Numbered from the stretch's first letter, positions 49,705-63,935 are shown. The stretch is DNA of 64,000 nucleotides from Pseudorhodobacter antarcticus (GCA_945862465.1 CAMAYO010000001.1:37988-101987), one strand, 5' to 3'. Numbers and translations: made by a program. The notes: generated from the sequence alone by a model not told the origin.

Positions 49705-50655
49705 TTAACGCCGCCACAAACTTTGCCGCTCGTGATGCTGGATCGTCGCGGCCAAGGTTTCAAATTGGCCGGCCAGAAAGCTGCGGAGCCGCCTTGCCGC
49801 GGGGCTAAGGCCCAAGGCGCTGCGATACATCAGACCCAGTTTGCGATCAGGATGTTCAATGCGAATGGACAGCGCGGCCACACGATATTGGCGGCGCAAT
49901 GAAAACAGCACCGAATAGGGCAGCACCGTCAAACTGTCAGACCCCGCCAGCATGCCCATCACCGCCGAGAGGCTGCCGCCCGAATAGCTGATGCGGATTT
50001 GTTCCGTGCTGATCGTCGACAGCACCCGCTGCAAATCGGCATAAAGCGGGCTGTTCGCAGGTGGGGCTATCCAAGGAAAGCGCAACAAGTCTGCCGCCGT
50101 CACCGCAGGGCCATGCAGCAAAGGGTGGCCCTCGCGCGCGGCAATCACATTGCGTCCCGGCAGCAGCGTGTCAAAGCTTAAGCCTTCGGGCAGATCATCA
50201 GGCCGCAGCGGGCAAATCGCCAGATCCAGTGCCCCGCTTTGCACCAGTGTTGCCAGATCGGGCGCATAGCCATAGCTTTGTTCCAGCCGCACATCGGGGT
50301 TTTGCGCCTGAAACCCCGCGATCATCGCCACAATCACCCCGTCCATGAACACCGGCGTCCCCGCCACGCGCACCGCCCCCGCTTTGCCCAGCCGGAAACT
50401 TTGCACCGCTTGGCCCGCCGCTTGGGATGCTTGAAGAATACGCGCGCCTTCCTCGGCCAAACGAGCGCCCAATTCTGTTGGCTGCAAAGGTCGCCTACCG
50501 GGCACAAAAAGCGCAGCCCCCAAGCGCGCCTCAAGCGCAGCCACTGATCGTGACAGGGCGGGCTGCGATTTGCCCAAAAGGGCTGCGCCTTCGGTCAAAC
50601 CACCCGCCTGCACGATGGCGGCGAGGATTTCGAGCTGTCTGGGATCTATCTTCAT
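49705..50655 (-). CDS. LysR family transcriptional regulator (divergent from the hydroxyquinol operon)
   Basis: MKIDPRQLEILAAIVQAGGLTEGAALLGKSQPALSRSVAALEARLGAALFVPGRRPLQPTELG. Confidence 0.93.
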   Translation of the reverse strand: MKIDPRQLEILAAIVQAGGLTEGAALLGKSQPALSRSVAALEARLGAALFVPGRRPLQPTELGARLAEEGARILQASQAAGQAVQSFRLGKAGAVRVAGTPVFMDGVIVAMIAGFQAQNPDVRLEQSYGYAPDLATLVQSGALDLAICPLRPDDLPEGLSFDTLLPGRNVIAAREGHPLLHGPAVTAADLLRFPWIAPPANSPLYADLQRVLSTISTEQIRISYSGGSLSAVMGMLAGSDSLTVLPYSVLFSLRRQYRVAALSIRIEHPDRKLGLMYRSALGLSPAARRLRSFLAGQFETLAATIQHHERQSLWRR

Positions 50656-50733: not shown

Positions 50734-51819
50734 ATGACCCAATTACCCACCTTTGCCCTGCGCCTTTCCGCCCTGCGCGCGCAGTTTGGGCAAGCGGCGG
50801 CACAAGCGATAGCGGCGGCTTTGCAGCAGATGTCGTTGTCGCGTGCTGTGCTTTTGGCCACCCCCGGCCATGCTGACCAAGCGCACGACATGGCCGCACA
50901 GATCGGCCCCAGCGTGGTGGCTGTTCTGCCGGTAGCGCAAATGCACACACCGGTTGAGGTGACCCAGCACGCCTTACCGCATGTGCTGGCCGCAAAGGCC
51001 GATGCGTTGATATCGTTCGGCGGCGGGTCTGTCACCGGCCTAGGCAAGGCGCTGGCCCTACACACCCACTTGCCCCATATCGCCGTGCCCACCACCCATG
51101 CGGGGTCCGAAGTGACCGGTATTTTGGGCCAAACCGAAGCGGGGCGCAAAACCACGCTGACCGATGCGCGCCTGCAACCACAGGTGGTGATCTATGACCC
51201 GCGCCTGATTGCCAGCCTGCCGGCGCAGATCACCGTCACCTCGGCGCTGAACGCGCTGGCCCACGCGGTCGAGGCGCTTTACGCCCCTGACCGCAACCCC
51301 GTGACCAGCACTTTGGCGCTGCAAGGCGCGCAGGCGTTGGTCACTGCTTTGCCCAAGGTTTTGGAAAACCTGCACAATCTGCAAGCCCGCGCCGATTGCC
51401 AATATGGCGGTTTCCTCTGCGGCCTTGTTCTGGGCCAAGTTGGCATGGGCTTGCACCACAAGCTGTGCCACACCTTGGGCGGCAGTTTTGGGCTGCCCCA
51501 TGCGCAAACCCATGCGGTGATTTTGCCCCATGCCGTGGCCTATAACGAGGCGGCTGTGCCCGATCTTCTGGCCCCCTTGGCGCGTATCCTAAACGCCCCT
51601 AGCGCGGGGCAGGGGCTCTACGCCCTTTCCGCAAGCCTACACGCCCCCCAATCGCTGCGCGATCTTGGGCTGGCCGAAGCCGATCTTGACCGCGCCGCAG
51701 ACCTTGCGACGCAATCCCCTTATCCCAACCCAAGCCCCTTGGAAAAGCCCGCCCTGCGCGCCCTGTTACAGGCCGCATGGGAGGGCCATCCCCCAAAACC
51801 CAGAGGTTATCATGGCTGA
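50734..51819 (+). CDS. Maleylacetate reductase (iron-containing alcohol dehydrogenase superfamily)
   Basis: SFGGGSVTGLGKALALHTHLPHIAVPTTHAGSEVTGILGQTEAGRKTTLTDARLQPQVVIYDPRL; HKLCHTLGGSFGLPHAQTHAVILPH. Confidence 0.9.
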   Translation: MTQLPTFALRLSALRAQFGQAAAQAIAAALQQMSLSRAVLLATPGHADQAHDMAAQIGPSVVAVLPVAQMHTPVEVTQHALPHVLAAKADALISFGGGSVTGLGKALALHTHLPHIAVPTTHAGSEVTGILGQTEAGRKTTLTDARLQPQVVIYDPRLIASLPAQITVTSALNALAHAVEALYAPDRNPVTSTLALQGAQALVTALPKVLENLHNLQARADCQYGGFLCGLVLGQVGMGLHHKLCHTLGGSFGLPHAQTHAVILPHAVAYNEAAVPDLLAPLARILNAPSAGQGLYALSASLHAPQSLRDLGLAEADLDRAADLATQSPYPNPSPLEKPALRALLQAAWEGHPPKPRGYHG

Positions 51820-53566
51820 CATCACCACCGAGGTTCTTATCATCGGCACCGGCCCCGCAGGCTCTGCCACGGCGGCCCTTTTGGCCAGTTACGGCGTGGA
51901 AAACCTTGTGATCAACCGCTACCGCTGGCTGGCCAACACGCCGCGCGCCCATATCACCAACCAACGCTGCATGGAGGTGCTGCGCGATCTGGGCCACGAG
52001 GTGGAAGACGAAGCCTATCTGTTCGCCACCCCGCAAGAAAAGATGGGCGAGAACATCTTTTGCGTTAGCCTTGCGGGTGAAGAGATTGGCCGGATGAATT
52101 CTTGGGGCACCCATCCCATGTCAAAAGCGGAACACCTTTTGTCTTCGCCTTGCGAAATGAACGACCTGCCGCAAACCTTTATGGAGCCGCTGCTGTTCAA
52201 AACCGCCTGCCAGCGCGGCAGCCAAAGCCGGATGAGCGTGGAATATCTGCACCATGTACAAGACGACACCGGAGTGACCACCACTTGCCGCGACAAGCTG
52301 ACGGGCAAGGATTTCACCGTCCGCTCAAAATATCTGGTCGGGGCGGATGGGGGCAATTCGCTTGTGGCGGAACACGCGGGCCTGCCGTTTGAAGGCAAGA
52401 TGGGCGTTGGCGGGTCGATGAACATTCTGTTTCGCGCCGATCTGTCAAAGTATGTCTCTCACCGGCCTTCGGTTCTGTATTGGGTGATGCAACCCGGTGC
52501 AGATGTGGGCGGTATCGGCATGGGGCTGGTGCGCATGGTGCGGCCTTGGAATGAATGGCTGATCGTTTGGGGCTATGACATCAACCAGCCTGCACCTGTG
52601 GTCGATGCGGCCCTTGCGACCCAAGTGGCACGTCAGTTGGTGGGCGACCCTGATCTGGAAATTGATCTGATCTCGGCCAATACGTGGACGGTGAACAATA
52701 TGTTCGCCACCCATATGCAAAACAACCGCGTGTTTATCATGGGCGATGCGGCGCATCGGCATCCGCCGTCAAACGGGCTGGGGTCAAACACCTCGATCCA
52801 AGATGGGTTCAACTTGGCGTGGAAGCTGGCGATGGTGGTTAAGGGGCAGGCAGCACCCGCTTTGCTGGAAAGCTATTCCACCGAACGCGCCCCCATTGCG
52901 CGCCAGATCGTCACCCGCGCCAACCAATCCATCGGCGAGTTCGGCCCGATCTTCCAAGCCCTCGGCATGACAGGCGGCACCGATCACGACAAGATCCGCG
53001 CCAATATGGAAGCCCGCGCCGATGCGACCCTCGCGGGCGAGGCGCAGCGCGCCGCCCTGCGCGAGGCGATTGCGTTCAAGAAATACGAATTCGACGCCCA
53101 CGGGATCGAGATGAACCAACGTTACCGCAGCACCGCTGTGGTCACCGATGGCCAGATGGAACCCGCGTTTGAACTGGATGCGGTGTTGCACTACCAACCC
53201 ACCACTTGGCCCGGCGCGCGCTTGCCCCATGTCTGGATCTTTGACGCTGCGGGCAAAAAGCATTCCACGCTTGATCTCTGCGGCCATGGTCGCTTTGCCC
53301 TGTTCACCGGTATTGGTGGCGAGGCTTGGGTAGAAGCCGCCCGCAGCCTTGGCGCGGAACTGGGGCTTACCATCGACACGCGCCTGATCGGCCCGCGCCA
53401 CGCCCTGCTGGACCACACCGGCGATTGGGCCCGCGCGCGCGAAGTGTCAGACGCGGGCTGCGTTCTGGTGCGCCCTGACCACCATGTCGCTTGGCGGGCC
53501 GATAGCCTGACGGATACTCCCCTAGCCGACCTGAAGCGCGTGCTTAAATCGATCTTGGGGCGCTAA
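51812..53566 (+). CDS. FAD-dependent aromatic hydroxylase (TfdB/resorcinol-hydroxylase-like)
   Basis: VLIIGTGPAGSATAALLASYGVENLVINRYRWLANTPRAHITNQRCMEVLRDLG; GDAAHRHPPSNGLGSNTSIQDGFNLAWKLA. Confidence 0.88.
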   Translation: MADITTEVLIIGTGPAGSATAALLASYGVENLVINRYRWLANTPRAHITNQRCMEVLRDLGHEVEDEAYLFATPQEKMGENIFCVSLAGEEIGRMNSWGTHPMSKAEHLLSSPCEMNDLPQTFMEPLLFKTACQRGSQSRMSVEYLHHVQDDTGVTTTCRDKLTGKDFTVRSKYLVGADGGNSLVAEHAGLPFEGKMGVGGSMNILFRADLSKYVSHRPSVLYWVMQPGADVGGIGMGLVRMVRPWNEWLIVWGYDINQPAPVVDAALATQVARQLVGDPDLEIDLISANTWTVNNMFATHMQNNRVFIMGDAAHRHPPSNGLGSNTSIQDGFNLAWKLAMVVKGQAAPALLESYSTERAPIARQIVTRANQSIGEFGPIFQALGMTGGTDHDKIRANMEARADATLAGEAQRAALREAIAFKKYEFDAHGIEMNQRYRSTAVVTDGQMEPAFELDAVLHYQPTTWPGARLPHVWIFDAAGKKHSTLDLCGHGRFALFTGIGGEAWVEAARSLGAELGLTIDTRLIGPRHALLDHTGDWARAREVSDAGCVLVRPDHHVAWRADSLTDTPLADLKRVLKSILGR

Positions 53567-53567
53567 G

Positions 53568-54440
53568 ATGGAAGCGGGATATTTCACCGAAAGCGACAGC
53601 GCAGAAGTTGTCATTGCCCGCAACGCCGCCGCCAAATCGGAACGGCTTGCGCAGGTGATGGCGGTGCTGACCCGCCATATCCATGCGGCCGTGAAAGAGA
53701 TTGAACCGACCACCGAAGAATGGATGACCGCGTTGCAATTTCTAACCGCCACAGGCCAGATGTGCAGCGATTGGCGGCAGGAATATATCCTGTTTTCCGA
53801 TATCATGGGCGTGTCGATGCTGGTCGATGCGATCAACAATCGCAAACCCTCTGGCGCGTCAGAATCCACCGTCTTGGGGCCGTTCCATCTGGCCGATGCC
53901 CCCGAATTGCCCATGGGGGCGAATATCTGTCTTGATGACAAGGGCGAGGCGATGCTGGTGCGTGGGCGTATTGTTGACACGTCGGGCAACCCGATACCCC
54001 AAGCCAAGATTGATGTCTGGCAAGCCAATGACGAAGGCTTTTACGATGTGCAGCAAAAGGGCATCCAGCCTGATTTCAACCTGCGCGGGGTGTTTCGCAC
54101 CGGCGCTGATGGGCGCTATTGGTTCAAGGGGGTGAAGCCCAAATTCTATCCCATCCCCGATGATGGCCCTGTGGGCAAGTTGCTGGGGGCTTTGGGCCGC
54201 CACCCCTTCCGCCCCGCGCATTTGCATTATATCCTGGAAGCCCAAGGGTTTGACACGCTTGTCACCCATATCTTCGACCCCGATGATCCCTATATCCATT
54301 CCGATGCGGTCTTTGGCGTCAAGCAAAGCTTGCTCGCGAAGTTTGATCTGATCACCGACCCCGCCCGCATCGCGGCAGAAGGCATGGATGGCCCGTTCCA
54401 TCTTGTGGAACATGATTTCGTTCTGGCGGCCAAAGCATGA
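53568..54440 (+). CDS. Hydroxyquinol 1,2-dioxygenase (intradiol)
   Basis: ESTVLGPFHLADAPELPMGANI; GNPIPQAKIDVWQANDEGFYDVQ; YWFKGVKPKFYPIPDDGPVGKLL...HPFRPAHLHYIL. Confidence 0.9.
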   Translation: MEAGYFTESDSAEVVIARNAAAKSERLAQVMAVLTRHIHAAVKEIEPTTEEWMTALQFLTATGQMCSDWRQEYILFSDIMGVSMLVDAINNRKPSGASESTVLGPFHLADAPELPMGANICLDDKGEAMLVRGRIVDTSGNPIPQAKIDVWQANDEGFYDVQQKGIQPDFNLRGVFRTGADGRYWFKGVKPKFYPIPDDGPVGKLLGALGRHPFRPAHLHYILEAQGFDTLVTHIFDPDDPYIHSDAVFGVKQSLLAKFDLITDPARIAAEGMDGPFHLVEHDFVLAAKA

Positions 54441-55261
54441 CAAAGCCCTGCATCCTTTGCGTGGCGATCACAGGGTCACTGCCCACCAAAGCCAATAACC
54501 CCGCCGTGCCAATCACGATTGCCGAGCAGATCGAAAGCACCCAAGCGGCGTTTGAAGCGGGGGCGAGTATCGCCCATTGCCACGTGCGCGATGACGAGGG
54601 CAAACCTACCTCCGACCCCGACCGCTTTGCGCGCTTGGTTGAGGGGTTAAAGACCCATTGCCCCGGCATGATCATTCAACTGTCCACAGGCGGGCGGTCG
54701 GGTGCTGGCACGGCGCGGGGGGGCATGCTGCCCCTGCGCCCCGATATGGCCAGCCTGTCGGTCGGGTCAAACAACTTCCCTACCCGCGTTTACGAAAACC
54801 CGCCGGATTTGGTCGATTGGCTGGCGGCAGAAATGCTGAAATACAACGTGAAGCCTGAAATCGAATGCTTCGACCTGTCGCATATCGTGCAAGCTGCATC
54901 CATGGCGCGCGATGGGCGCTTGGCGAACCCGCTTTATGTGCAGTTCGTGATGGGCGTGAAAAATGCCATGCCAGCGGATGAGCGGATTTTTGACTTTTAC
55001 ATCGAAACCCTCAATCGCCTTGCCCCCACCGCCCTATGGTGTGCGGCAGGCATTGGCCCTGAGCAATTGACCATCAACGAATGGGCCATCGCCAAGGGCG
55101 GTCATACCCGCACGGGCATGGAGGATAACGTGCGCCTAGACCGCGACCGCTTGGCGCCGTCAAACGCCGCCCTTGTGAAGCGCGCGGTGGATTTGTGCGA
55201 TAAATACCAACGCCCTGTCGCCACTTGGGCACAGGCCCGTGCGATGCTGGGGCTGGCATGA
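54437..55261 (+). CDS. BKACE family beta-keto acid cleavage enzyme (DUF849), copy 1
   Basis: PCILCVAITGSLPTKANNPAVPITIAEQ; IAHCHVRDDEGKPTSDPDRF (metal/HxHxRD motif); IIQLSTGGRSG; ATGA overlap with the dioxygenase. Confidence 0.9.
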   Translation: MTKPCILCVAITGSLPTKANNPAVPITIAEQIESTQAAFEAGASIAHCHVRDDEGKPTSDPDRFARLVEGLKTHCPGMIIQLSTGGRSGAGTARGGMLPLRPDMASLSVGSNNFPTRVYENPPDLVDWLAAEMLKYNVKPEIECFDLSHIVQAASMARDGRLANPLYVQFVMGVKNAMPADERIFDFYIETLNRLAPTALWCAAGIGPEQLTINEWAIAKGGHTRTGMEDNVRLDRDRLAPSNAALVKRAVDLCDKYQRPVATWAQARAMLGLA

Positions 55262-55263
55262 CA

Positions 55264-56007
55264 TTAGCCTGCCAGCCTCCCCTCCAGATCGGCCTTGACC
55301 GCCAAAAGCGCGGCCGTGACAAGCGCGCGCCGTTCGGCAAAGCGCGAGGTCGGGATGGGCAGGGATATGGCAAACACCTCGCCGCTAAAGTCGCGAAAGG
55401 CGATGCCTATGGCGGAAATGCCCTCGGTGTGGTCGTCGTTATCCTCGGCGAAGCCCAGTTTGCGCGCCAAGGCGAGGCGGGCGAGCAAGATGGGCAGATT
55501 GCCAGAGCCTTGGCCCCATTCGGCTTGGGCCAGCTCGATTGCGGCGTCTTCGGGCAAGATCGACAGGGCGGCGCGGCCGTTGGCGGTGGTGGTCAGGGGG
55601 AAATGCTCTCCGACAGACGAAACTGCCCGCAGGCGGTGGCTGCCCTGCACCTGATCCAAAAACACCATCTGCCCGCCGCGCAGGGCCGACAGATCAACCG
55701 TCTCGCCCGTGGCAGCCATCAGGGCGGTCAGATGCGGGCGGCACAGATCAACGGTGTTGGTGCGCGCCGCTTCGGCCAAAGCTTGCAGCTCTGGCCCCAA
55801 ACGCACGCCAGCGGCGCGGGTGGCGACAAGCAGGCGTTCGTCGATCAAGGCCGCGACAATGCGCTGCACAGTCGAACGGGGCAGGGCGACCCTATCGGCG
55901 ATTTGCCCAAGGCTCAGGCCCGTCTGGCTATCTTTCAACGCGCGCAGCACGGCGGCGGCGCGTGCGATCACCTGAATGCCGTCTTTGGTTTTCCCGCCGT
56001 CCTTCAT
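55264..56007 (-). CDS. IclR family transcriptional regulator
   Basis: IQVIARAAAVLRALKDSQTGLSLGQIADRVALPRSTVQRIVAALIDERLL; ISAIGIAFRDFSGEVFAISLPIP. Confidence 0.94.
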   Translation of the reverse strand: MKDGGKTKDGIQVIARAAAVLRALKDSQTGLSLGQIADRVALPRSTVQRIVAALIDERLLVATRAAGVRLGPELQALAEAARTNTVDLCRPHLTALMAATGETVDLSALRGGQMVFLDQVQGSHRLRAVSSVGEHFPLTTTANGRAALSILPEDAAIELAQAEWGQGSGNLPILLARLALARKLGFAEDNDDHTEGISAIGIAFRDFSGEVFAISLPIPTSRFAERRALVTAALLAVKADLEGRLAG

Positions 56008-56044
56008 GGTCGCCCTATGCCAGAGCCTACGCGCCGATTCCAGC

Positions 56045-56099
56045 CCGCAATGCGATACAGCCCCCTCATAGCGCGGGAATCATTTGACCGCAATGCGGT
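56045..56099. promoter_or_regulatory. Paired candidate IclR operator sites
   Basis: CCGCAATGCG at 56045-56054 and again at 56089-56098 within the perfect palindrome ACCGCAATGCGGT (56087-56099); 44-bp spacing. Confidence 0.5.
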
Positions 56100-56195
56100 G
56101 CATATGTATCGTCATGCAAGACGGCGCTTTGCGATAGGTGGGGCGCACGGGATGGGCTTGGCCAAGGCCAGCCAAAGATCGGGGGAGGTTTAAGA

Positions 56196-57032
56196 ATGGT
56201 CACTGTGCGCGGCATCGAATTCCAGGGCAACTTGGACAACACCATGGGGCTAGAGTTTTACAACCTGTCCCACCGCTTCGGGTTTCAGCACCCGAACTGG
56301 CCCTACTTTCAGGATGTTCAGATCGAACGCATCCATTACATGGCCAAATCCGGCGTTCTAAGCCAGCGCATCACCACCACGATGCACGCCACCACCCATA
56401 TCGACGCCCCCGCCCATGTGGTGCAAGGCACGCCCTTTATCAACGAAGTGCCTCTGCCGCATTTCTTTGGCACGGGGATTGTGGTCAGCTTGCCCAAGAA
56501 GAAATGGGAGCCGATTACAGGCGAAGATTTGGAAAAGGCCTGCGGCCACGCCATCCGCCCCGGTGATGTGCTGATCATCAACACAGGCTGGCACAAGCAG
56601 TATGAAGACGGCGATTACTTTGCCTATTGCCCGGGTTTTGTGCCTTCGGCGGGCGAATGGATGGTCAAGAAAGGCGTCAAGGTCGTGGGCCACGACACCC
56701 AAGCCAATGATCACCCCTTGGCCACCGCGATTGGCCCGCAACGCAACGGCCCGCTGCTGCCGCATCTGAAGAAAGAGTATTTCGAATGGTCCGGCGGGCG
56801 CGATTGGGCCGTGGATTTCCCCGATTGGGAACCTGTCCACCAGATCCTGTTCAAAGCGGGCATTTTGGGCATCGAAAACGTCGGTGGCGATTTGGATGCC
56901 GTCACCGGCAAACGCTGCACCTTTGCCTTCTTCCCGTGGAACTGGGATCGCGGCGATGGCTGCATCATCCGCTTGGTTGCGATGATCGACAAAAGCCAAG
57001 GCTACCGGATCGAAGCCGGTGAGGCGTTTTAA
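56196..57032 (+). CDS. Cyclase family protein (kynurenine-formamidase-like metal hydrolase)
   Basis: TTMHATTHIDAPAHVVQGTPF (metal-binding HxxTHxDxPxH motif); VLIINTGWHKQYE. Confidence 0.88.
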   Translation: MVTVRGIEFQGNLDNTMGLEFYNLSHRFGFQHPNWPYFQDVQIERIHYMAKSGVLSQRITTTMHATTHIDAPAHVVQGTPFINEVPLPHFFGTGIVVSLPKKKWEPITGEDLEKACGHAIRPGDVLIINTGWHKQYEDGDYFAYCPGFVPSAGEWMVKKGVKVVGHDTQANDHPLATAIGPQRNGPLLPHLKKEYFEWSGGRDWAVDFPDWEPVHQILFKAGILGIENVGGDLDAVTGKRCTFAFFPWNWDRGDGCIIRLVAMIDKSQGYRIEAGEAF

Positions 57033-57108
57033 ACTTTCAAGCGGGGGGGCCAGCCCCCCGCATCCCCCGAAGTCGTTAGATCAGGATGACCTAGAAAGGC
57101 CAAGACCC

Positions 57109-57459
57109 ATGCTGGTGAAACGCTTTGAAGAGGCAACGCCCTACGATGCCCCCAACCATCGGGGCGTGGTCGGTTTGCGCTTGCAGGGGTTTGAGGCGGG
57201 CGGGCCAACCAACCAATGGGTGGGCTTTTCGCAGTTCCTGCCGGGTGGCGGGGCGGGGCCGGATTCGACCCCGTTTGAGAAGGTCTATGTCGTTCTGGAA
57301 GGTTCGATGACGGTGATCGTGGCGGGTCAGGAAAGCGTGCTGGGGCCGATGGATTCTGTCACCATCGCGCCCGGCGAAGTGCGCGAAATTGTCAACCGGT
57401 CGCACCATGTCTGCAAGATGCTGGTGGTGATCCCTTACCCTGCGAAGGTGCCAGCATGA
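57109..57459 (+). CDS. Small cupin-domain protein
   Basis: PGGGAGPDSTPFEKVYVVLEGSMTVIVAGQESVLGPMDSVTIAPGEVREIVNRSHHVCKMLVV. Confidence 0.87.
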   Translation: MLVKRFEEATPYDAPNHRGVVGLRLQGFEAGGPTNQWVGFSQFLPGGGAGPDSTPFEKVYVVLEGSMTVIVAGQESVLGPMDSVTIAPGEVREIVNRSHHVCKMLVVIPYPAKVPA

Positions 57460-58250
57460 GCCTTCCAAACCCGTTGGATATGTTCGATGTCAAAGGCAAG
57501 GTCGCGCTGATCACCGGCGCGTCTGGGGCCTTTGGGGCGGTTGCTGCGCGGGTTCTGGCGGGGGCGGGGTGCCGCTTGGTGCTGGCCGCTGGCAAGGCAA
57601 GTGAGCTTGCCGCCATCGCTGCCGAATGCCGCGCTGGCGGGGCCGAGGTGGTAGAGGTCAACACAAGACCGGAGTCTGAAACCGCTTGCACCGCCTTGGT
57701 GGCTGCGGCGGTGGCGGCGTTTGGCAGTTTGGATATTCTGGTTGTCGCGTCTGGCATGAACAAGGTTGCCAAGATCGACGACATGGCGCCGGAAACCTTT
57801 CTGGCCGTGATGGATGCCAATGTGACCCAGTCTTGGCTTTTGGCCCGTGCCGCCACTGTGCAGATGAAGGCGCAGGGGCGAGGCGGCAAGATCGTGCTGG
57901 TATCCTCAGCGCGCGGGCTTTTGGGCCATCCGGCGGGTTACACCGCCTATTGCGCCAGCAAGGCTGCGGTCGATGGCATGACCAAGGCCTTGGGCTGCGA
58001 ATTGGGGCCAACGGGGATTACAGTTAACGCCATTGCGCCGACGGTGTTTCGCTCGCCGCTCACCGCATGGATGTTTGACGATACGGACAACGCCAAGGCC
58101 GTGCGCGGTGGCTTTTTGGCGCGCGTGCCTAAGGGCCGCTTGGGCGAGCCAGAGGATTTGGCGGGGCCACTGTTGTTTTTAGCCTCACGTGCGTCAGATT
58201 TCTACACGGGCCACATTCTTTATGCCGATGGCGGCTATACGGCGGGATGA
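57456..58250 (+). CDS. SDR family oxidoreductase
   Basis: GKVALITGASGAFGAVAARVLAGAG; GYTAYCASKAAVDGMTKALGCELGPTGITVNAIAPTVF. Confidence 0.93.
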   Translation: MSLPNPLDMFDVKGKVALITGASGAFGAVAARVLAGAGCRLVLAAGKASELAAIAAECRAGGAEVVEVNTRPESETACTALVAAAVAAFGSLDILVVASGMNKVAKIDDMAPETFLAVMDANVTQSWLLARAATVQMKAQGRGGKIVLVSSARGLLGHPAGYTAYCASKAAVDGMTKALGCELGPTGITVNAIAPTVFRSPLTAWMFDDTDNAKAVRGGFLARVPKGRLGEPEDLAGPLLFLASRASDFYTGHILYADGGYTAG

Positions 58251-58251
58251 G

Positions 58252-59175
58252 ATGACACAGGCGCAGATAGCGGTGATCGGGGCGGGGTTGATGGGGCATG
58301 GTATCGCCCTGACCTTTGCGCGCGCCGGTCATGCGGTGCGCGTGACGGACCCTGTGGCCGAAGCGCGGGCTGCTTTGATGGCGCGCGTCACTGACAGCTT
58401 GCGGCTGATGGGCGTGGCTAAGGAAGACATCGCGCAAATCTTGCCGCGCATCACGGTCGTCGATGGTATCGCCGCCGCTGTCAACGACGCTGCATTTGTC
58501 TTTGAAGCTGCGCCTGAAAAGATGGCGTTGAAGCAGGCGATCTTTGCCGAAATTGAAACAGCAGCGCCTGCGACGGCGATCTTGTGTTCCAACACCTCTG
58601 TCATGCCGATCACCCAGATCATGGCTAACTTGGCCGATAAGTCCCGCGCGCTTGGCACCCATTGGTGGAACCCGCCGCATCTTATTCCGCTCGTTGAGGT
58701 GATCCGCACGGCTGACACCAGCGAAGCCGCGATGGAGGCCACGATGCACCTGTTGGCGGGGGCGGGCAAAACCCCCGTGCGGGTGGAAAAGGATGTGCCC
58801 GGTTTCATCGGCAACCGCTTGCAGCACGCGCTCTGGCGCGAGGCTGTTTCGCTGGTGGAACGCGGTATCTGCGATGCCAAGGCGGTCGATGCCGTGATCA
58901 AGGCCAGCTTTGGCCGCAGGCTTGCGGTGCTGGGGCCTTTGGAGAATGCCGATCTGGTGGGAACCGATCTGACGCTCGACATCCACACCACCGTGCTGGC
59001 CGATCTGGAAAGCCGCCCCGGCCCATCGCCTCTGCTGGCGCAGATGGTGGCTGAAGGGCGCTTGGGGATGAAGTCGGGCCAAGGCTTTCACGACTGGACC
59101 CCCGATCAGGCACAAGACTTGCGCGCCAAAGTGGTTTCGCATCTTTTGGCGCTTGAAAAGCTGTTGGAGGGGTAG
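58252..59175 (+). CDS. 3-hydroxyacyl-CoA dehydrogenase family protein (possible 3-hydroxy-acid dehydrogenase)
   Basis: IAVIGAGLMGHGIALTFARAGHAVRVTDP; GTHWWNPPHLIPLVEVI; VEKDVPGFIGNRLQHALWREAVSLVERGI. Confidence 0.92.
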   Translation: MTQAQIAVIGAGLMGHGIALTFARAGHAVRVTDPVAEARAALMARVTDSLRLMGVAKEDIAQILPRITVVDGIAAAVNDAAFVFEAAPEKMALKQAIFAEIETAAPATAILCSNTSVMPITQIMANLADKSRALGTHWWNPPHLIPLVEVIRTADTSEAAMEATMHLLAGAGKTPVRVEKDVPGFIGNRLQHALWREAVSLVERGICDAKAVDAVIKASFGRRLAVLGPLENADLVGTDLTLDIHTTVLADLESRPGPSPLLAQMVAEGRLGMKSGQGFHDWTPDQAQDLRAKVVSHLLALEKLLEG

Positions 59176-59331
59176 ATGCACTCAAACCCCTTACACCCCA
59201 AGACCCCGCGCTTAGGACCAAATCCCGCAGGCGCGCAAAAAGGCCCACACCGGGCGCAGGAGACGAACGTTTAAACCGACCCCTCGGCACATGAAAGACC
59301 GGCGGGGCAACCATCACTCTGGGAGGAAAGA

Positions 59332-60603
59332 ATGGCTCACTTCACCTATACGCGGCGCAAGTTCATCACAGCCACCACGGGGCTTATCGCGGCCCCCGCG
59401 ATTTTGCGTGCCAACCGCGCTTTGGCGCAGGACGGCGTGTTCAAAATCGGCTTTGTCGCCCCCACTACCGGCCCCTTGGCAGGCTTTGGCGAGGCGCAGG
59501 ATTGGATCTTGGCTGGCCTGAAAGACACGCTGGCCGGCATGACCAACAATGGCAAACCGGTCCAGATTGAAATCATCACCAAAGACAGCCAATCCAACCC
59601 CAACCGCGCAGCGGAAGTGGCGCAGGATTTGATCTTGAACGAAGGCATCAACCTGATGCTCACCCATGCCACGCCCGACACGACCAACCCCGTGGCCGAC
59701 CAGTGCGAGTTGAACGAGATCCCCTGCATTTCGACCAACGCGCCGTGGCAGCCCTATTTCTTTGGCCGTGGCGGTGCGCCGGATGTGGGCTTTAACTACA
59801 CTTACCACTTCTTCTGGGGGCTAGAGGATATCATCGCGAACTTCACCGCGATCTGGGATGCCTCGGGTGTCGCTAAAAAGGTCGGCGGGCTGTTTCCGAA
59901 TGATGCGGATGGCAACGCTTGGGGCGATGCCAATCTGGGCCTGCCCGGCCCCTTGGCCGCCGCTGGGTACGAACTGACCGATCCGGGCCGCTATCAGCCG
60001 ATGAACAACGATTTCACCAGCCAGATTGCGGCCTTTAAGGCGTCGGGCTGTGAAATTGTCACGGGCGTGATGATCCCGCCCGATTTCGCGACCTTCTGGG
60101 CCCAAGCCGCCCAACAGGGCTTTACGCCCAAGGTTGTGACGATCGGCAAGGCGCTGCTCTTCCCGTCATCCGTTGACGCGCTGGGCGATCGGGGCGATGG
60201 CTTGACGACCGAAGTGTGGTGGACGCCGGATTACCCCTATTCCTCTTCGCTGACCGGCGTTTCGGCCAAAGACTTTGGCGCGGCCTATGTGGCCGATACC
60301 GGCAAGCCGTGGACATCGACGCTGGGCTTTAGCCATGCGATCTTTGAGGTGGGTCTGGACGTGATCAAACGCGCCGCAGATCTGACCGACAAGGCATCGA
60401 TCATGGAGGCGATCACAGCCACCAACCTGAACACCCTGGTCGGGCCGATCAACTGGGCCAATGGTCCGGTCAAGAACGTGACCAAAACGCCCTTGGCGGG
60501 TGGTCAGTGGCAGCGTGTCGATGGCAAGCTGGAACTGAAGATCGTCAACAACATGCAGAACCCGCAATTGCCCCTGACGGGTGAATTGAAACTGCTGGCC
60601 TGA
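59332..60603 (+). CDS. Branched-chain amino-acid-type ABC transporter substrate-binding protein, Tat-exported
   Basis: Twin-arginine signal YTRRKFITATTGLIAAPAILRANRALAQ; periplasmic binding fold (KIGFVAPTTGPLAGFGEAQDW). Confidence 0.9.
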   Translation: MAHFTYTRRKFITATTGLIAAPAILRANRALAQDGVFKIGFVAPTTGPLAGFGEAQDWILAGLKDTLAGMTNNGKPVQIEIITKDSQSNPNRAAEVAQDLILNEGINLMLTHATPDTTNPVADQCELNEIPCISTNAPWQPYFFGRGGAPDVGFNYTYHFFWGLEDIIANFTAIWDASGVAKKVGGLFPNDADGNAWGDANLGLPGPLAAAGYELTDPGRYQPMNNDFTSQIAAFKASGCEIVTGVMIPPDFATFWAQAAQQGFTPKVVTIGKALLFPSSVDALGDRGDGLTTEVWWTPDYPYSSSLTGVSAKDFGAAYVADTGKPWTSTLGFSHAIFEVGLDVIKRAADLTDKASIMEAITATNLNTLVGPINWANGPVKNVTKTPLAGGQWQRVDGKLELKIVNNMQNPQLPLTGELKLLA

Positions 60604-60652
60604 TCAATGTGCTGGGGACCGCATTGGCCCCCAGCTTGCCAAAGGGTGGCGT

Positions 60653-61375
60653 ATGACGCTGTTATCGCTGGAAAACCTGTCAAAAAGCTACGGGGCTTTG
60701 AAAGTCACCGACGACATCTCACTCAGCGTGGCGCAGGGTGAGATTGTGGGCATTTTGGGGCCCAATGGCGCGGGCAAGACCACGCTGTTCAATCTGGTCG
60801 CAGGCACGGTGCAGCCCAATGCGGGGCGCGTGGTGTTTGCGGGCCAAGATGTGACGGGGCTTGACGCCTCGACCCGCTGTCGCATGGGCATTTCGCGCAG
60901 CTTTCAGATTCCGCACCCTTTCAACGGCATGACCGTTTTTGAAAACATCCTTGTGGGCGCCACCTTTGGCCGCCCGAATGCCACGGCCCCCCACGCCCGC
61001 GCGGCCGAGGTGTTGCGCCTGACAGGCCTTGCGCGGCGCGCCAATGACAAGGCGGGGGCGCTGACCCTGCTAGAACGCAAACGGCTAGAGATGGCGCGGG
61101 CTTTGGCCACCGACCCGGCGCTGTTGCTGCTGGATGAAATAGCCGGCGGCTTGACCGAACGCGAATGCCAAGCGCTGCTGGATGCTGTGCGCGAAGTGCA
61201 TGCCACGGGGGTGACGATTGTGTGGATCGAACATGTGGTGCACGCCCTGCTGTCGGTGGCGCAGCGACTGGTTGTGGTGGATTTTGGCGTGAAGATCGCC
61301 GATGGCCCGCCCGCCGAAGTTCTCGCCTCAAAAGACGTGCAGTCGGTTTACATGGGGGCCGAAGAGCATGTCTGA
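60653..61375 (+). CDS. ABC transporter ATP-binding protein (LivG type)
   Basis: GPNGAGKTTLFNLVAGTVQP; LLLLDEIAGGLTERE. Confidence 0.94.
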   Translation: MTLLSLENLSKSYGALKVTDDISLSVAQGEIVGILGPNGAGKTTLFNLVAGTVQPNAGRVVFAGQDVTGLDASTRCRMGISRSFQIPHPFNGMTVFENILVGATFGRPNATAPHARAAEVLRLTGLARRANDKAGALTLLERKRLEMARALATDPALLLLDEIAGGLTERECQALLDAVREVHATGVTIVWIEHVVHALLSVAQRLVVVDFGVKIADGPPAEVLASKDVQSVYMGAEEHV

Positions 61376-62069
61376 CGGCTTGGTGGTGGAAGGTGTTGAA
61401 AGCTTTTATGGCGATTTCAAAGCCTTGCATGGCGTGTCGCTGGCGTTAGAGCCGGGCAAGGTGCTGGCCTTGATCGGGGCGAACGGCGCGGGAAAATCAA
61501 CGCTGCTCAAATCCATCTGCGGCTTGGTGTCGCCCAAGGCGGGGCGTGTCACATGGCGCGGACGTGACATTACGGGGCTGGGGGGCGCACAGACTGTGGC
61601 ACTTGGCATAGCCCTTGTGCCCGAAGGTCGCCGCTTGTTTAAATCGCTCTCGGTCGAGGAAAATCTGATCTTGGGCGGGCAAATCGGCCGCTCTGGCCCT
61701 TGGGGGTTGCAGCGGCTTTATGACCTGTTCCCCATTCTGCAAGAAAAACGCCACCAACCTGCCACCTCACTTTCGGGCGGGCAGCAACAGATGGTGGCGA
61801 TTGGCCGCGCCTTGATGTCAAATCCCGATCTGGTGCTGTTTGACGAGCTAAGTCTTGGCCTTGCGCCCATCGTGATCAAAGACATCTACGCTCAACTGCC
61901 CAAAATCACGGGGCAGGGGATGAGTGCGATCTTGGTCGAGCAAGACGTGACCCGTGCGCTGAACGCCGCCAACCAATTCCTGTGTCTGGTCGAGGGGCGG
62001 GTTTCGTTGTCTGGCAAGCCCCAAGACCACAGCCGCGACGCGATTTCCGCCGCTTATTTCGGAACCTAA
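61368..62069 (+). CDS. ABC transporter ATP-binding protein (LivF type)
   Basis: GANGAGKSTLLKSICGLVSPKAG; ATSLSGGQQQMVAIGRALMSNPDLVLFDELSLGLAP. Confidence 0.94.
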   Translation: MSDGLVVEGVESFYGDFKALHGVSLALEPGKVLALIGANGAGKSTLLKSICGLVSPKAGRVTWRGRDITGLGGAQTVALGIALVPEGRRLFKSLSVEENLILGGQIGRSGPWGLQRLYDLFPILQEKRHQPATSLSGGQQQMVAIGRALMSNPDLVLFDELSLGLAPIVIKDIYAQLPKITGQGMSAILVEQDVTRALNAANQFLCLVEGRVSLSGKPQDHSRDAISAAYFGT

Positions 62070-62070
62070 A

Positions 62071-62934
62071 ATGGATTTGATCAACATCATTTTGCAAGGC
62101 GTTCTGGTCGGCGGGCTTTATGCGCTGTTTGCCGCGGGCCTGTCGCTGATCTTTGGCGTGATGCGTTTGGTCAACATCGCGCACGGCGATCTGATCGTGT
62201 TGGCCGCCTATATCGCGATGGAGGTGATCAGGCTTTCGGGCCTGCCGCCCTTGGTGGCGCTGATCTTCGTTGTGCCGGTGATGGCGGCCTTTGGCTATGC
62301 CCTGCAACGCGGCATCTTGAACCGCACTTTGGGCGGTGATCTGCTGCCCCCCTTGCTCGTCAGCTTTGGCCTGTCGGTGATCTTGCAAAACGGGCTGCTG
62401 GCGGTCTTTACCGCTGACAGCCGCAAGCTGGATGCGGGGGTGTTGGAAACCGCCTCGGTCAGCTTTGGCGGCCTGTCGATCGGCCTTTTGCCCGCGCTGA
62501 TGTTTGCCACCGCCGTGGCTGTGATCGCAGCCTTGCAATTCATGTTCTACAAAACCGCCCTAGGCCGCGCCTTTCGCGCGACATCTGACGATGCCGAGAT
62601 TGCGGAACTGATGGGCCTAGACCGCCGCCGCGTTTACGCTTGGGCTATGGCGTTGTGCTTAGGCGTGGTGGCGATTGCAGGGGTGTTCTTGGCGATCCGG
62701 TCGAACTTTGACCCGTTCATGGGCCCGGGCCGGCTGATTTTCGGCTTTGAAGCGGTGATCATCGGTGGCTTGGGCAACCTGTGGGGCACGCTGGCGGGCG
62801 GGGTGATCTTGGGTGTGGCCCAAGGGTTGGGTGCGGCGATTGACCCGGGTTGGCAGATACTGGCGGGCCATGTGGCGTTCTTGCTGATCTTGGCCATCAA
62901 ACCGCGCGGATTGTTTCCAAGGATGGACGGATGA
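62071..62934 (+). CDS. Branched-chain amino-acid-type ABC transporter permease (LivH type)
   Basis: ILQGVLVGGLYALFAAGLSLIFGVMRLVNIAHGDLIVLAAYIA. Confidence 0.94.
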   Translation: MDLINIILQGVLVGGLYALFAAGLSLIFGVMRLVNIAHGDLIVLAAYIAMEVIRLSGLPPLVALIFVVPVMAAFGYALQRGILNRTLGGDLLPPLLVSFGLSVILQNGLLAVFTADSRKLDAGVLETASVSFGGLSIGLLPALMFATAVAVIAALQFMFYKTALGRAFRATSDDAEIAELMGLDRRRVYAWAMALCLGVVAIAGVFLAIRSNFDPFMGPGRLIFGFEAVIIGGLGNLWGTLAGGVILGVAQGLGAAIDPGWQILAGHVAFLLILAIKPRGLFPRMDG

Positions 62935-63935
62935 TGCAGTTTACCATTTCCCGCGCCACAATCACGTCACGCATCGCGGGCGTCTTTGCCCTTCTGCTGC
63001 TGGTGGTGCTGGCCGCAGCGCCTTGGTGGGCCAGCTCGTCATTCCTGCATTTGGCTGGCGAGTTCGCCGTCTACCTCGCCCTTGCCACCCTTTGGAACCT
63101 GCTTGCGGGCTATACCGGCCTCGTCTCGGTCGGCCAGCAAGCCTATGTCGGCTTGGGCGGCTATATCACCTTCAGCTTGGCGCTGTTCTTGGGCGTGCAT
63201 CCTTTGTTGGCGATCCCCTTGGCGGGGCTGGTGGCGGCCTTGGTCGCCATACCCGTGGCTTCGCTGGTGTTTCGCTTAGCAGGGGCCTATTTCGCCATCG
63301 GCACTTGGGTCATGGCCGAGGTGTTTCGCCTGATCGCCGCCCAAGCCACCGCTTTGGGTGGTGGGTCAGGCATCAGCCTGCCCGCCACTGTCACCAAGGA
63401 ATTGGGCGGCAAATGGCTGCGCGAGGCGTCGATTTTTTGGCTCGCCTTGGCGCTTGGTGCAGGTTGCTTGGCGCTGGTCTATCTGCTGCTGCGTTCGCGC
63501 ATCGGGCTGGCGCTGACGGCCATCCGCGACAGCGAGGTGGCATCAACTTCGCTGGGCATCCGCATCGGGCGGGTGAAACATGTGCTTTATGTGCTAGTGG
63601 CGGGGCTTACGGCGATGATCGGCGCGCTGATCAGCCTGCAAAAACTGCGCGTTTCGCCGGATGCGGCGTTCAGCGTGAACGACTGGACAGCCTTTGTGAT
63701 TTTCATCGTCGTCATCGGCGGCATCGGCACGATTGAAGGGCCAATCATCGGCACGATCGTCTATTTCCTGCTGCGGGAATTTCTGGCCGATTTCGGCACG
63801 CTTTATCTGCTGTTTCTGGGCACCTTGGCCATCGTGGTGATGCTGGGCGCCCCCAAGGGCCTGTGGGGCTATGCGGCGGAACGCTTTGGCTGGTCGCTGT
63901 TTCCGGTCGGCTACCGCATTCATTTTAAGGAGTAA
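62931..63935 (+). CDS. Branched-chain amino-acid-type ABC transporter permease (LivM type)
   Basis: LWNLLAGYTGLVSVGQQAYVGLGGYITFSLAL; SEVASTSLGIRIGRVKHVLYV; start 62931 or 62934. Confidence 0.93.
   Translation: MMQFTISRATITSRIAGVFALLLLVVLAAAPWWASSSFLHLAGEFAVYLALATLWNLLAGYTGLVSVGQQAYVGLGGYITFSLALFLGVHPLLAIPLAGLVAALVAIPVASLVFRLAGAYFAIGTWVMAEVFRLIAAQATALGGGSGISLPATVTKELGGKWLREASIFWLALALGAGCLALVYLLLRSRIGLALTAIRDSEVASTSLGIRIGRVKHVLYVLVAGLTAMIGALISLQKLRVSPDAAFSVNDWTAFVIFIVVIGGIGTIEGPIIGTIVYFLLREFLADFGTLYLLFLGTLAIVVMLGAPKGLWGYAAERFGWSLFPVGYRIHFKE

Follow-up and report, generated by a model that had tools for sequence, protein, structure and literature searches.

A predicted 3-oxoadipate-cleaving BKACE as the last gene of a hydroxyquinol operon in Pseudorhodobacter antarcticus

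The hydroxyquinol operon of Pseudorhodobacter antarcticus analysed here lies at positions 50734-55261 of a 64-kb stretch of DNA (hereafter the window) and consists of four plus-strand genes, encoding a maleylacetate reductase, an FAD hydroxylase, a hydroxyquinol dioxygenase and, in last position, a member of the BKACE family. Judging from its equivalog membership and gene context, the BKACE probably converts 3-oxoadipate and acetyl-CoA to succinyl-CoA and acetoacetate, and we give a probability of roughly 0.85 to a whole route from hydroxyquinol through the BKACE to ScoAB (succinyl-CoA:3-ketoacid CoA-transferase, SCOT) and a thiolase as the function of the operon. The BKACE family itself is reportedly that of Bastard et al. 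(2014). The four genes are as follows.

50734..51819, + strand: maleylacetate reductase, maleylacetate to 3-oxoadipate (PDB 3w5s, E 3e-108; 3hl0, E 3e-104; Fe-ADH)
51812..53566, + strand: FAD-dependent phenol-type hydroxylase (PF01494; 2-hydroxybiphenyl 3-monooxygenase, E 9e-177, then 2,4-dichlorophenol hydroxylase, E 1e-134)
53568..54440, + strand: hydroxyquinol 1,2-dioxygenase, hydroxyquinol to maleylacetate (PDB 8r2x, 1tmx)
54437..55261, + strand: BKACE, matching the 3-oxoadipate:acetyl-CoA acetyltransferase equivalog (NF053568; PF05853, 316 bits)

A preliminary description of this DNA had claimed four coupled genes on one strand, and the families and coordinates it gave are borne out by the gene positions and by the PDB and Pfam matches. 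The reductase and hydroxylase genes overlap by 8 nt, 1 nt separates the hydroxylase and dioxygenase genes, and the dioxygenase and BKACE genes share a 4-nt ATGA overlap. It had also stated that PcaIJ and PcaF are missing from the visible cluster, and indeed no homologue of PcaI, PcaJ or PcaF was found within the 64-kb window. The best PDB match of the dioxygenase is 8r2x, a 6-chlorohydroxyquinol 1,2-dioxygenase (E 3e-95), with 1tmx at E 3e-70, whereas catechol dioxygenases reach E 3e-37 at best, about 60 orders of magnitude weaker than 8r2x; these matches place the predicted enzyme nearer the hydroxyquinol dioxygenases than the catechol dioxygenases. The hydroxylase probably converts resorcinol or a related phenol to hydroxyquinol, a substrate assignment that comes from its context. 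The BKACE is thus encoded beside the genes that produce 3-oxoadipate, those for the dioxygenase and the reductase.

The window BKACE scored 487.3 bits over residues 2-273 against NF053568, 137 bits above the curated cut-off of 350, and 253 bits against the Kce model, below the cut-off of 382. Among the five BKACEs encoded in the assembly that contains the window (G000), it is the only one above the NF053568 cut-off, and the other four fail. One of these paralogues exceeds the cut-off of the 3,5-dioxohexanoate equivalog, and another adjoins a gene resembling carnitine 3-dehydrogenase, which itself falls slightly short of the cut-off for that function; with a model or context of their own, these two paralogues serve as an internal specificity control for the assignment. 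Close relatives with solved structures are 3fa5, 3chv and 3no5. The zinc ligands H47, H49 and E229 and the pair R225/D230 align with positions 46, 48, 230, 226 and 231 of Kce and do not vary across 140 sequences. The Kce enzyme of lysine fermentation (PDB 2y7d) has the fold, the zinc site and the reaction type in common with the window BKACE but a different substrate, and its Glu14 is replaced by Leu in the window enzyme. Arg87 and Arg117, in turn, are invariant in the 140 clade sequences and absent from Kce and from the four paralogues, and could bind the distal carboxylate of the substrate. A Kce or dehydrocarnitine assignment of the window BKACE was rejected on the model scores and the separate genomic paralogues; placement with these enzymes, set beforehand in the preliminary description as a refutation of its proposal, was tested for and did not occur.

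Relatives of the BKACE occur in operons of other intradiol pathways. Among 80 named relatives, pcaH/pcaG lie directly upstream in 42, other pca genes are nearby in 8 more and hydroxyquinol genes in 3. The 3chv protein of Ruegeria pomeroyi is encoded by the last gene of pcaQ-pobA-pcaC-pcaH-pcaG-BKACE, a protein identical to 3fa5 comes after pcaG in Paracoccus denitrificans, and in Cupriavidus catA-benABCD and a transporter gene precede BKACE genes whose products share 96-97% identity with 3no5. 3-Oxoadipate is the only point at which the protocatechuate, catechol and hydroxyquinol routes converge. Since kin of the window BKACE end all three branches, which share only this compound, their distribution argues for 3-oxoadipate as the substrate. 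NF053568-type BKACEs were also seen without a nearby ring-cleavage gene at L027, L040, L055, L061 and about 20 other loci, where they may serve unlinked pathways. Furthermore, pca-type loci of Halomonas (L067, L071, L074) and Billgrantia (L072, L080, L081) carry both a BKACE and a PcaF-type thiolase, and both finishes may coexist there.

The hydroxyquinol setting of the BKACE recurs in the family of the window, as seen in a sample of 397 Rhodobacteraceae genomes, 52 of which were counted as hydroxyquinol genomes (dioxygenase match E <= 1e-90). In 18 of the 52 the dioxygenase gene is immediately followed by a BKACE gene in the same orientation, in one further genome a BKACE gene lies within 400 nt, and the sister metagenome-assembled genome (MAG), G001, also carries the pair; adjacency in at least 19 family genomes is not chance. 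On a tree of 141 rows, 11 changes were needed to explain the hydroxyquinol label, at least three of them forced by well-supported branches, and a single origin of the pair was rejected when the BKACEs of hydroxyquinol operons were constrained to one clade (p-AU 0.011), indicating that these operons acquired a BKACE on more than one occasion. Repeated, modular recruitment of this kind is strong evidence from nature that 3-oxoadipate is the substrate. In G297, one hydroxyquinol locus ends in a BKACE and another in PcaI-PcaJ-PcaF (L202, L218). At L220 (G123), the match to the BKACE downstream of the hydroxyquinol dioxygenase covers 94 residues only, with 65% identity, and this copy is possibly broken or misassembled. 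At L194, L196, L200 and L202, a second intradiol dioxygenase (42-46% identical) is encoded about 10 kb upstream, at the far end of the hydroxyquinol cluster.

To set the BKACE against the textbook finish, PcaI was told from ScoA with TIGR02429, on which complete PcaI-type genes score about 310-375 bits and ScoA-type genes 186-255 bits, a clean separation. An NF053568 BKACE is present in 276 of the 397 genomes and PcaI in 66 of the 397, so that the BKACE finish appears to outnumber the textbook one in the family. The preliminary description had proposed surveying whether the BKACE co-occurs with hydroxyquinol dioxygenases lacking pcaIJ; this holds for 33 of the 52 hydroxyquinol genomes (BKACE only) but not for the 9 that carry both, while PcaI alone occurs in 7 and both are missing from 3 (odds ratio 0.12, p=0.006, a statistic that ignores kinship). 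Across all 397 genomes the anticorrelation is weak (p=0.11, again ignoring kinship), and pcaI occurs in 2 of the 18 genomes with the dioxygenase-BKACE pair compared with 14 of the 34 without it (p=0.03). Within the hydroxyquinol genomes, BKACE and PcaI thus tend to stand in for one another, whereas an exclusive replacement of pcaIJ would be too strong a claim, given the genomes with both and the family-wide value. G087, the one further member of the genus in the sample, has PcaI and lacks an NF053568 BKACE.

Family searches found no PcaI-type gene in G000, the assembly of which is 92% complete, or in G001, and the best TIGR02429 match in G000 is a SCOT-like protein of 237 bits. The genome search proposed in the preliminary description therefore came out as expected for pcaI but not for pcaF: one solitary PcaF-type thiolase scores above the cut-off in G000 (C110:16-1209, L015; 671 bits, cut-off 597), at a contig edge, and its counterpart in G001 (C4:36201-37394, L145) is also solitary, behind an oppositely oriented gene. 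A PF05138 search found no paa genes in G000 or G001, so that a function of the lone pcaF in phenylacetate breakdown finds no support; the thiolase may act in dicarboxylate oxidation or in a classical route running in parallel. Taken together, the equivalog model, the gene context across genomes and the lack of pcaI in the assembly and the sister MAG support well, at the level of sequence, the claim that the BKACE acts on 3-oxoadipate.

In the proposed route, the FAD hydroxylase would make hydroxyquinol from a phenolic compound, the dioxygenase would open its ring to give maleylacetate, and the reductase would turn this into 3-oxoadipate, the latter two reactions being established for their families. 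The BKACE, as its equivalog and context suggest, would condense 3-oxoadipate with acetyl-CoA and cleave the product to succinyl-CoA and acetoacetate; ScoAB would then activate acetoacetate, and an acetyl-CoA acetyltransferase would split the activated form to acetyl-CoA. The only two-subunit CoA-transferase of G000 is of the SCOT type (Bacillus subtilis ScoA 3cdk, E 4e-99), and a thiolase of the acetyl-CoA acetyltransferase type is present as well. The term 'CoA-transferase-free', used in the preliminary description, hence fits the activation of 3-oxoadipate but not that of acetoacetate, which needs SCOT or a similar enzyme. By arithmetic, the BKACE, SCOT and thiolase reactions sum to 3-oxoadipate + CoA -> succinate + acetyl-CoA, equal to the sum of PcaIJ and PcaF, the two sets of reactions differing only in whether CoA transfer or C-C cleavage comes first. 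PcaIJ and PcaF thus share the substrate and the net products with the BKACE route once ScoAB and thiolase are counted, but are different enzymes that transfer CoA before cleavage, with no acetoacetate intermediate. The BKACE gene is immediately followed by scoA in the pca operons of L310, L242 and L153 (the last from Yoonia vestfoldensis), with an ATGA overlap in L310, and these scoA genes are 80-86% identical to G000 ScoA and about 40-43% to PcaI. The scoA homologue of Y. vestfoldensis SKA53 (L153, C1:721396-722626) is split into two parts that are read in different frames, possibly because of a frameshift or a sequencing error.

Several observations weigh against the BKACE as the finish of the pathway, and most of them would fit a dominant classical finish, in which ScoAB or an unassembled PcaIJ acts on 3-oxoadipate together with the solitary PcaF and the BKACE is an accessory bypass. 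PcaF exceeds its equivalog cut-off in both MAGs, neither of which has paa genes to account for it otherwise, making ScoAB on 3-oxoadipate plus PcaF possible; G000 is incomplete and in 155 contigs, so the absence of pcaIJ is not strict; and both routes are found in several related genomes, including the 9 hydroxyquinol genomes above, while BKACE and PcaF share one locus in Halomonas, so that the routes are not always exclusive. In addition, growth of Roseovarius nubinhibens on 4-hydroxybenzoate requires a CoA-transferase, which was read as PcaIJ (PMC12442348), but both routes predict this requirement. We nevertheless consider a dominant classical finish unlikely, since a PcaI-type gene is found in neither MAG, the sole CoA-transferase pair is SCOT-like and about 41% identical to PcaI, the pcaF of G001 adjoins neither the operon nor a CoA-transferase, and the BKACE occurs without pcaI in most hydroxyquinol genomes.

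More doubtful still is a BKACE acting mainly on a substituted (methyl-, chloro- or aryl-) 3-oxoadipate derived from a substituted hydroxyquinol. The nearest solved kin of the dioxygenase and the hydroxylase use 6-chlorohydroxyquinol, 2-hydroxybiphenyl or 2,4-dichlorophenol, and promiscuity of BKACEs has been reported (PMC4922564), but the same BKACE clade terminates unsubstituted pca and ben/cat operons and the window enzyme exceeds the cut-off of the 3-oxoadipate equivalog. As for a Kce- or dehydrocarnitine-type enzyme standing here by chance, for which the RefSeq product name of the family ('3-keto-5-aminohexanoate cleavage protein') could be cited, we regard it as extremely improbable in view of the Kce score, the leucine in place of Glu14, the two paralogues noted above and the conserved, recurrent adjacency to the dioxygenase gene.

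The operon, with its predicted BKACE finish, is flanked by the following genes.

49705..50655, - strand: LysR-type regulator (PF00126/PF03466), divergent from the operon
55264..56007, - strand: IclR-type regulator (PF01614/PF09339), convergent with the operon
56196..59175, + strand: cyclase-family protein, cupin, SDR and 3-hydroxyacyl-CoA dehydrogenase-like protein
59332..63935, + strand: branched-chain-amino-acid-type ABC transporter, with a binding protein about 50-56% identical to those in related hydroxyquinol clusters

The LysR-type gene likely regulates the operon, and a LysR homologue flanks the maleylacetate reductase gene in many related hydroxyquinol clusters. The block at 55264-63935 (IclR, cyclase, cupin, SDR, hydroxyacyl-CoA dehydrogenase and ABC transporter) also follows the hydroxyquinol dioxygenase gene at L223 of G043, a locus without a BKACE in a genome that has a PcaI-type gene elsewhere.

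The preliminary description had called the reaction a new terminal step of aromatic catabolism. This part does not stand, as NCBIfam already has an equivalog named for the reaction, and the finish was proposed earlier for protocatechuate and catechol operons (PMC8963497, PMC12379598, PMC6449761); a novel reaction is thereby ruled out. A comparative genomics study of 2019 on the catechol regulon of R. eutropha H16 proposed a COG3246 protein as a beta-ketoadipate cleavage enzyme and associated its gene with pcaHG in other bacteria (PMC6449761); there, too, an intradiol pathway ends in beta-ketoadipate cleavage, but in the catechol branch and from comparative genomics only. The pca cluster of Methylobacterium contains a DUF849 gene and no pcaIJF (PMC8963497), and M. 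extorquens given a pcaHGBL and kce cluster grew on protocatechuate (PMC12379598). In this pcaHG-kce-pcaB-pcaL cluster a BKACE gene likewise stands beside ring-cleavage genes and replaces pcaIJ/pcaF, but the cluster belongs to the protocatechuate branch, whereas the window operon belongs to the hydroxyquinol branch, through maleylacetate and its reductase. Compared with the enzyme of Cupriavidus necator H16, after which NF053568 is named, the window BKACE falls under the same equivalog, is about 65-95% identical to the relatives used for comparison and has the same zinc ligands and Arg/Asp pair, but the operon context is ben/cat there and hydroxyquinol here. A re-analysis of the original BKACE enzyme screen lists beta-ketoadipate among the substrate classes (PMC4922564). 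No paper combining hydroxyquinol and DUF849 was found in the literature searched, where subscription journals are mostly missing, and a BKACE finish of the hydroxyquinol branch looks unreported there. What is new is that the BKACE finish occurs in a hydroxyquinol setting, that it was recruited there repeatedly and that the family as a whole apparently prefers it.

The BKACE finish would thereby be extended to the third intradiol branch, and it bears on the final steps by which Roseobacter-type bacteria degrade aromatic compounds, steps that in 2025 were described as incomplete for more than 20 years. In R. nubinhibens, pcaF was found in 2025 to be dispensable, with an acetyl-CoA acetyltransferase compensating, and 'pathway crosstalk' with beta-oxidation thiolases was invoked without mention of a BKACE (PMC12442348). 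Roseovarius sp. 217, named as pcaF-deficient in the same study (PMC12442348), has a BKACE in its pca operon, a transferase of the ScoA type only and no PcaF over the cut-off, a gene set that suggests re-reading the crosstalk as the BKACE route; if true, the crosstalk of R. nubinhibens would be the signature of an overlooked BKACE route. Whether the sequence of BKACE, SCOT and thiolase, and not PcaIJ-PcaF, is the main beta-ketoadipate finish across Rhodobacteraceae, hydroxyquinol included, we judge to be evenly balanced. Since the BKACE is apparently the commoner of the two in the family, many pathways that are complete will be scored as broken wherever an annotation pipeline searches for pcaIJF.

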